A DNA stretch of 64,000 bases from Atopomonas hussainii. Lineage in GTDB: Bacteria; Pseudomonadota; Gammaproteobacteria; Pseudomonadales; Pseudomonadaceae. Below, piece after piece: positions 39,002 to 41,288 of the stretch (position 1 is its first letter; the number at the start of each line of letters is the position of its first letter). Position numbers and translations under genes: made by a program. Location: assembly GCF_900109735.1 (NCBI RefSeq), contig NZ_FOAS01000007.1, positions 1-64,000 on the forward strand. The letters are read 5' to 3'. The notes under the pieces are model-generated. The model ran no database searches. It was not told the DNA's origin and saw nothing but the letters and a program-made list of their open reading frames with translations.

Positions 39002-40138
39002 TTAGCGGCGCTTGGCCATGCTGTCGATGAAACGATCAAACAGCGGCGCAACATCGTGCGGGCCGGGGCTGGCTTCCGGGTGACCTTGGAAGCTGAACGC
39101 GGCCTTATCGGTGCGCTCAATACCCTGCAGGGTGTGGTCGAACAGCGACTTGTGGGTAGCACGCAGGTTGCTCGGCATGCTCGCCTCGTCCACGGCGAAA
39201 CCGTGGTTCTGGCTGGTGATCATCACCACACCGCTGTCTAGATCTTGCACAGGGTGGTTAGCACCGTGATGGCCGTGGCCCATCTTCACGGTTTTTGCGC
39301 CGGAGGCCAGTGCCAGCAACTGGTGACCCAAGCAGATGCCGAATACCGGAATCTCAGTTTCCAGCACTTCCTGAATCGCCTTGATGGCGTAATCGCACGG
39401 CTCCGGATCGCCAGGGCCGTTGGACAGGAACACGCCGTCGGGATTCAGCGCGAGCACTTCTGCGGCCGGGGTTTTCGCCGGCACTACGGTTAAGCGGCAG
39501 CCGCGCGCGACCAACATGCGCAGGATGTTCAGCTTAACGCCGTAGTCATAGGCCACCACGTGGTAGGGCAGCTGATCGGCAGCCACTTCGGGATGGCTGT
39601 CGGTTTCCAGACTCCACACGCCAGAGCGCCACTCGTACGCTTTAGCGCAGGTGACTTCTTTGGCTAAGTCCATGCCTTTGAGGCCCGGGAAGCCACGCGC
39701 CAGCTCCAGCGCTTGCTCGTCGGTGATGTTGTCACCGGCAAGAATGCAGCCGTTTTGCGAGCCTTTCTCACGCAGGATGCGGGTCAGGCGACGCGTGTCA
39801 ATACCGGCAATGGCGACCACATTATTGGCTTTTAGGTACTCATCCAGCGGCTGCTTGTTACGCCAGTTGGAGGACAGCAGCGGCAGGTCACGAATGACCA
39901 AGCCTGCGGCCCACACGCGGTCGGCTTCAGCATCTTCCGGCGTGGTGCCGGTGTTGCCGATATGGGGATAAGTCAGTGTTACGATTTGGCGCGCGTACGA
40001 CGGGTCAGTGAGGATTTCCTGGTAACCGGTCATGGCAGTGTTAAATACCACTTCACCGACGGTTTGCCCGTCAGCACCGATTGCCTCACCGCGAAAAATA
40101 CTACCGTCTGCGAGGGCGAGAATGGCTGGCTTGCTCAA
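39002..40138 (-). CDS. carA: Carbamoyl-phosphate synthase, small subunit (glutaminase)
   Basis: Hydrolyses glutamine and channels ammonia to CarB. The 378 residues include an N-terminal CarA domain and a class I glutamine amidotransferase domain with the nucleophile Cys269 in GICLGHQ and a C-terminal HPEASPGP. The start codon is TTG at 40138, with GGGAGG 5 nt upstream. No suitable ATG precedes it. Upstream is a leader with a short reading frame and a terminator-like hairpin, suggesting attenuation. Confidence 0.96.
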
Positions 40139-40187
40139 GAAGGCCTCCCGAAAAGCATAAGCAAGTCTTTAAGAAATCGCAGGTTGT

Positions 40188-40230
40188 AAAAAAGCGGAAT
40201 GACATTTCAGACAACGTCATCCCGCTTTTT
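40188..40230 (-). terminator. Terminator-like hairpin in carA leader (candidate attenuator)
   Basis: The minus strand folds into a 15-bp stem with one mismatch (40216-40230 with 40189-40203), a 12-nt loop and a run of six T at the 3' side (40188-40193). It ends 50 nt before the carA start. Because it lies inside the probable carA leader, it would act as an attenuator rather than as a terminator of dapB. Confidence 0.65.
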
Positions 40231-40263
40231 ATGCGAATTGTGTGGCGCACCGCGGAGGCACAC
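40207..40263 (-). CDS. Candidate 18-codon leader peptide of carAB
   Basis: A short frame starts with GTG at 40263, runs for 18 codons and stops with TGA at 40207-40209. Its last codons form the 5' arm of the terminator-like hairpin and the stop codon lies in the loop. A ribosome translating to the stop would therefore break the hairpin. I recall a short leader peptide and pyrimidine-dependent attenuation being described for Pseudomonas carAB, but no ribosome site is obvious here and translation is unproven. Confidence 0.45.
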   Translation of the reverse strand: MCLRGAPHNSHKKRDDVV

Positions 40264-40272
40264 TAAAGCAGT

Positions 40273-40301
40273 AGTCTACCGAAAAAGCCTTTTTTGGTCT
40301 A
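40273..40301 (-). promoter_or_regulatory. Candidate carAB promoter
   Basis: On the minus strand TAGACC (40296-40301) as -35 and TAGACT (40273-40278) as -10 are separated by 17 nt. Transcription would start near 40266, just before the leader frame. An alternating A/T stretch (AAAAAAGGCTTTTT) fills the spacer. Confidence 0.5.
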
Positions 40302-40469
40302 CCGCTTAACCGCCACACATTGCCAGATTGGCGACTAAAGAGCTGCCGAGCTAATTGGCGAACAGCTCAAGCGCAAGGCGTACGGAGCACAGCAACCGAG
40401 ACATACCGCCTTGGTAGGCGAGGCTGAGAGCACCGCACAACGCAGCGATTGAGCTGTGCAGCCATTAGA
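40302..40469. other. Non-coding DNA between dapB and the carA promoter
   Basis: About 170 bp follow the dapB stop codon (minus strand). No gene, tRNA or clear intrinsic terminator of dapB was found here. Transcription of dapB may run into the carA leader and end at the hairpin at 40188-40230. Confidence 0.5.

Positions 40470-41288
<819 letters not shown>

Follow-up and report, generated by a model that had tools for sequence, protein, structure and literature searches.

The DNA upstream of carA in the window, by which we mean the whole stretch of 64,000 nucleotides analysed here, raises the question of how a pseudomonad carA leader would sense pyrimidines. A 1994 report (cited in PMC4997734) implicated a terminator in the pyrimidine control of Pseudomonas carAB, and accounts of the sensing step differ, a leader peptide being reported in P. 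aeruginosa and none seen in P. syringae in the passages of PMC4997734 that deal with them. A comparison across the family offers a way out, namely a start codon that would lie at the very 5' end of the RNA and open a peptide of no importance in itself, and it also points to an outer helix, P0, which is absent from those passages. The features of the locus are as follows.

40470-41273, minus strand: dapB, upstream of the carA leader and on the same strand.
40273-40301, minus strand: weak sigma-70-like promoter, TAGACC-17-TAGACT, read in the sequence and below the threshold of a simple scanner.
40263-40264, minus strand: probable transcription start, on the GTG or one base before it, placed by the -10 spacing and the start distance in P. 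syringae DC3000.
40207-40263, minus strand: GTG-initiated frame of 18 codons plus TGA, read in the sequence.
40245-40263, minus strand: predicted 5'-end hairpin GUGUGCC/GGUGCGC, replacing the start-site palindrome of the family.
40192-40227, minus strand: terminator hairpin of 15 pairs with a 6-nt loop that holds the TGA, from sequence, fold and covariation in relatives.
40188-40193, minus strand: T tract and expected 3' end of the short RNA, the DC3000 3' end lying at the equivalent place.
40232-40236, minus strand: putative 5' arm of the outer helix P0, TCGCA, from the read-through fold with family-wide support.
40177-40181, minus strand: putative 3' arm of P0, TGCGA, downstream of the T tract, on the same grounds as the 5' arm.
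40143-40149, minus strand: Shine-Dalgarno-like GGGAGGC of carA, read in the sequence.
39002-40138, minus strand: carA, 378 aa, with its TTG start at 40138.

The initial annotation had read this region as a translation-coupled attenuator, and the leader anatomy that it gave (promoter, GTG frame, 15-bp hairpin, six T and TTG start of carA) is real, every element being legible in the sequence, as is the placement of the TGA of the 18-codon frame in the hairpin loop. The promoter does have a -35-like TAGACC (40301-40296) and a -10-like TAGACT (40278-40273) separated by a 17-nt spacer, but it is weak, with 8 of 12 consensus matches by our own count, and neither it nor the terminator was listed by the simple scanners run on the window. 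Transcription had been placed near 40266; we consider 40264 or 40263 more likely, since the G of the GTG lies 9 nt from the -10 box and the preceding 4 positions contain no other purine. With such a start, about one base at most would precede the GTG, leaving no room for a Shine-Dalgarno site. The GTG (40263-40261) opens exactly 18 codons, followed by TGA at 40209-40207. The hairpin (40227-40192) consists of the arms AAGCGGGATGACGTT and AATGTCATTCCGCTT around the loop GTCTGA, with G-U at 2 of its 15 pairs, and its stem sequence is common to the window and relatives; the six T (40193-40188) come after it, and the tract ends 49 nt before the TTG at 40138. The predicted fold of the leader RNA reaches -33.8 kcal/mol, whereas its shuffles average -18.1 kcal/mol (z -5.6; 0 of 200 as good). 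An A-tract and the T-tract flank the terminator stem symmetrically. Furthermore, GCCTCC near the 5' end of the leader (40259-40254) is complementary to GGAGGC (40148-40143) in the Shine-Dalgarno region of carA, a match that was not noticed in the other leaders read, which have GGAGGT or similar.

The orthologous leader of P. syringae DC3000 has been treated as the sRNA P32 (PMC4997734), reported in P. aeruginosa by Livny et al. 2006 as an RNA of about 80 bases (cited in PMC4997734) and mentioned also in passages of PMC2375449 and PMC3272035. According to the relevant passages of PMC4997734, the DC3000 leader starts 118 bases upstream of carA from a single promoter located between dapB and the hairpin, and its 3' end lies right after the terminator, 45 bp before carA; disruption or removal of the stem-loop raised the expression of lux fusions, uracil lowered that of the full-leader lux fusion, arginine plus uracil produced no change by qRT-PCR, and the authors found no possible start codon and no leader peptide. 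The same passages, citing Kwon 1994, state for P. aeruginosa that partial deletion of the stem-loop weakens the pyrimidine response and full removal abolishes it, and that a leader peptide is made, which bears out the Pseudomonas leader peptide mentioned in the initial annotation; the closing words of the Kwon 1994 title are 'no untranslated region exists'. The DC3000 start-site paper (PMC3247240) does not mention carA in its main text, and the sole main-text match to 'carA' in PMC2965389, cited for predicted carA attenuation in P. syringae, is an author's name. A literature search, whose coverage left out most subscription papers, returned no title on the sensing mechanism of the carA leader.

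The window element is a pseudomonad carA transcription attenuator, of a kind already described, a status that derives from experiments of others in relatives, namely hairpin disruption and a mapped 3' end. That part of the earlier reading stands with the DC3000 3' end after the hairpin and the rise in expression on hairpin disruption (passages of PMC4997734), but the 18-codon frame and its loop stop are not supported as the control element. The window shares with the P32 leader the gene, the position, a hairpin-T terminator that lies some 45-50 nt upstream of a TTG start, a promoter just upstream of that and an expected short leader RNA; it differs in having no canonical start-site palindrome (7 mismatches), in its 18-codon frame with a loop stop, and in a dispersed repeat between dapB and the promoter. 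The carAB operon of E. coli likewise answers to pyrimidines and arginine, but its control involves two promoters in tandem, regulatory proteins and reiterative transcription (passages of PMC4997734), whereas the window has a single promoter and a terminator.

CarA was detected in all 144 genomes searched, and for the comparison with relatives 170 carA upstream regions were read, 123 of them from the family (the genomes of genus g7 and genome G052 are outside these counts). A leader was called canonical when a segment close to TTTAGTGTRTCCACTAAA (at most 4 mismatches) preceded a terminator, which holds for 109 of the 170 loci, or 109 of the 123 family loci. The 61 non-canonical loci comprise 47 of other families and 14 of the family, the window included; its 13 companions lack the canonical segment by the mismatch rule or through a failed terminator call. 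The 109 canonical loci reduce to 73 distinct leaders, used for the frame test, and provide 78 distinct longer stretches for the alignment; for start codons and early stops, 30 loci were added and deduplication on a shorter stretch gave 78 leaders. Leaders of the g5 type, on which the automatic terminator finder failed with low scores, were located by their conserved core, and their P0 results depend on that choice. Searched as a pattern with at most 1 mismatch, TTTAGTGTRTCCACTAAA occurs in 110 of 148 family genomes with one match each, and the match lies just upstream of carA in all 10 genomes compared (G003, G006, G014, G026, G029, G041, G053, G062, G070 and G078); the palindrome was accordingly rejected as a regulon operator. 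The window differs from TTTAGTGTRTCCACTAAA at 7 positions, keeps only TTTAGTGTG and has no match within one mismatch, and we count the segment as common in, not defining for, the P32 leader class.

Alignment of the carA 5' regions did not sustain the annotated frame, and a frame unconserved in relatives was one of the refuting outcomes that the initial annotation had itself named. Across the 73 distinct canonical leaders, the GTG frame ends upstream of the terminator in 29 and within its 5' arm in 17, and only 2 have the stop in the loop; in another 16 the stop lies past the terminator, and in 9 the frame runs to carA. Counted modulo 3, the spacing between GTG and stem core is scattered (18/26/29). 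An apparent tendency of the GTG frame to be kept open relative to shuffled linkers (2 early stops vs 14.3 expected) was set aside because another frame was similarly depleted (3 vs 10.9) and matched frames were alike, with early stops in 2, 5 and 3 of 78 leaders, a comparison of low power at about 264 codons per frame. By eye, the GTG frame of four syringae-like genomes (L174-L177, the 4 of 12 genomes tested that have ice-nucleation repeats, PF00818) is 8 codons long and ends before the stem, so the hairpin effect reported in the syringae group does not depend on the geometry seen in the window. No particular frame or leader peptide is conserved among these sequences, and the 18-codon length and loop stop appear particular to the genome of the window. 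We give very little credence to the original version, in which a dedicated 18-codon leader peptide would position the ribosome through its loop stop. The frame and stop are present in the window, and a loop stop recurs in two distinct leaders of relatives, one of which (the L011 type) belongs to g9, the genus that includes P. nitroreducens (where L019 and L107 represent a single contig position); against this stand the rarity of the loop stop (2 of 73), the scattered phase and the 8-codon frame of the syringae-like leaders.

At the start site, the codon is GTG in 75, ATG in 2 and GTA in 1 of the 78 distinct canonical leaders, a count drawn from leaders chosen with a motif that itself contains GTG. 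In the GTA leader (L060) an ATG begins two bases downstream, group g18 combines a broken palindrome with an ATG codon, and ten divergent leaders of the g5 type have ATC at the GTG position. The best -10-like box ends 9 nt (52 leaders) or 10 nt (26 leaders) before the G of the GTG in the 78 distinct leaders. In the four syringae-like genomes the GTG precedes carA by exactly 118 nt, which equals the DC3000 start distance; thus, if DC3000 shares this geometry, its transcript may begin on GUG.

Covariation upheld the terminator, whose stem is kept in relatives with base-pair changes. In the 78 aligned leaders, 933 of 936 terminator cells are paired (0.997; shuffles mean 0.982, maximum 0.989), with G-C, G-U and A-U pairs replacing one another. 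The start-site palindrome behaves differently as an RNA helix, with 524 of 541 cells paired (0.969) vs a shuffle mean of 0.966 in the same alignment and no covariation; since it pairs no better than shuffled columns and its outer arm would lie upstream of the start mapped in DC3000, it was set aside as an improbable RNA hairpin, although a few single changes in it do look compensatory (in L060, and T-G to C-G in group g19). The outer helix P0 pairs ACGCAG, upstream of the terminator stem, with CTGCGT, downstream of the T tract. In the 78 aligned leaders 379 of its 433 cells are paired (0.875), whereas shuffles average 0.821 and reach at most 0.836, the column shuffles in all these tests not keeping relatedness. 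When downstream arms were swapped among 18 genera, with one representative per genus, six draws gave p 0.0004 to 0.017. Its sequences differ by group (CATGCAAAT/GTTTGCATG, GTGCGC/GTGCAC, CTGACA/TGTCAG), and tests on single sequences are mostly weak (p<0.05 in 21 of 110), only the pooled tests being significant. The window P0, seen in the read-through fold, would have five pairs (40236-40232 with 40181-40177) and taken alone gives p 0.37. Judged by the pooled alignment, P0 does coevolve family-wide; because the 3' arm is encoded downstream of the T tract, the helix would be made only once the polymerase has passed the termination point. Neither the palindrome without covariation nor the coevolution of P0 was found in the literature searched.

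The explanation that we put first, with a confidence that approaches an even chance and does not reach it, is a pseudomonad carA attenuator that would sense pyrimidines through translation coupling, which would begin at a 5'-terminal GUG and work in any frame. RNA polymerase would start at or beside this GUG and make a leader of about 75 nt, at whose end it would either stop at the hairpin-T terminator, with release of the short RNA, or read into carA, and pyrimidine repression would act through the hairpin, as others reported for relatives. A ribosome would load on the 5'-terminal GUG and follow the polymerase with no conserved peptide being involved; were UTP short, the polymerase would be slow and the ribosome would cover the 5' arm of the hairpin. 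Coupling by any such ribosome may occur despite the scattered frames, because pyrBI-type attenuation does not need a conserved peptide. A narrower proposal, which we regard as rather unlikely in all its parts, would have a leaderless, frame-agnostic coupling in which the transcript begins on the start codon and the coevolving P0, able to form once read-through has occurred and not before, sets the spent terminator apart as a domain of its own within the carA mRNA.

For translation coupling speak the real and covarying terminator, the DC3000 leader (single promoter, 3' end past the hairpin, expression higher without the hairpin and lower with uracil) and the loss of the pyrimidine response in P. 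aeruginosa on stem-loop removal (passages of PMC4997734), the ending of the Kwon 1994 title, the start codon at the start site (including the nearby ATG of L060 and the ATG kept by g18 despite its broken palindrome), and the GTG at the DC3000 start distance in the four syringae-like genomes. Against it count the lack of a conserved frame and of frame-specific avoidance of early stops, the ATC of the ten g5-type leaders and the choice of leaders by a GTG-containing motif. Leaderless GUG starts are, moreover, weak in E. coli. The likeness to pyrBI attenuation of enterobacteria drawn in the initial annotation goes only part of the way: in both, an intrinsic terminator precedes a pyrimidine gene and a frame extends into the hairpin, but the gene is another one, the frame of the window is not led by a Shine-Dalgarno site and its translation is putative, and no U run is visible by eye before the stem in the window leader, in contrast to the U-rich pause tract that precedes the terminator stem in pyrBI. 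For DC3000, no candidate start codon was found in the leader, and qRT-PCR was flat with arginine plus uracil (passages of PMC4997734). The reading that we place next, as possible and somewhat less probable, is one in which no ribosome takes part and terminator efficiency would be set by an RNA fold, by NTP-sensitive polymerase pausing or by some protein that is not PyrR. It draws on the unconserved frame, the g5-type leaders without the usual start codon, the absence of an observed leader peptide in DC3000 (passages of PMC4997734), the coevolution of P0 and the conservation of the start-site sequence beyond the start codon; it is held back by the fact that no alternative antiterminator pairing was found by eye, that the 3' arm of P0 is made only past the termination point, and that the palindrome has no RNA covariation.

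In Bacillus, PyrR binds leader RNA and promotes termination, and a PyrR over the curated cut-off is present in 58 of the 59 family genomes searched, including that of the window (the exception, G050, is 70% complete). Nevertheless, we consider control by PyrR at this leader very unlikely, since binding-type loops were not noticed by eye and in genome G089, which belongs to another family, no PyrR exceeds the cut-off and yet a hairpin-T element precedes carA (L083), which speaks against PyrR being required, on the strength of that one genome. Lower still we rank a plain or bidirectional terminator, acting on dapB read-through or on an antisense RNA with no regulated attenuator, a reading that we find barely tenable: the symmetric A-tract and T-tract and the opposite-strand match to the Rfam family P31 described below would suit it, but the sole DC3000 promoter lies between dapB and the hairpin, and changes to the hairpin alter expression in DC3000 and the pyrimidine response in P. 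aeruginosa (passages of PMC4997734).

Outer helices were also seen beyond the family. In 3 of the 4 Marinobacter leaders tested (L129, L133 and L149; p 0.037, 0.020 and 0.093), a helix like CAAGCGTA/TGCGCTTG surrounds the terminator in the absence of the canonical start-site segment; the fourth, L140, has another helix (p 0.14), and L139 was outside the test. The terminator-plus-outer-helix layout may thus be older than the family. In L083 and L084, of the f2 family, the predicted start region contains, by eye, AUUUU-GUGUCCG-AAAAU or similar, with a different stem and a loop that resembles the UGUCC of the family.

The carA gene of PAO1 lies, we take it, on the minus strand. An RNA-seq table of PAO1 lists P32 on the minus strand (passages of PMC3272035). 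The Rfam model RF01676 (P31) matches the plus strand of the window at 40138-40225, opposite carA, with 57.1 bits, above the gathering score, and matches on the opposite strand in 4 of the 6 relatives scanned (L007, L009, L012 and L114); it extends on that strand from the base that corresponds to the T of the carA start codon and ends in the hairpin. P31 was probably modelled on the wrong strand, or may instead represent an antisense RNA.

Between dapB and the carA promoter, at 40352-40468, lies a dispersed, imperfectly palindromic repeat of about 115 bp, with one copy in the window and at least 40 in its genome (40 of 87 candidates were scored, and all matched); none was found in 56 relatives, with at most 15 candidates scored per genome. 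The 149-nt stretch that contains it folds better than its own shuffles (z -3.3), and the features of the repeat suggest a REP- or MITE-like element specific to the genus.
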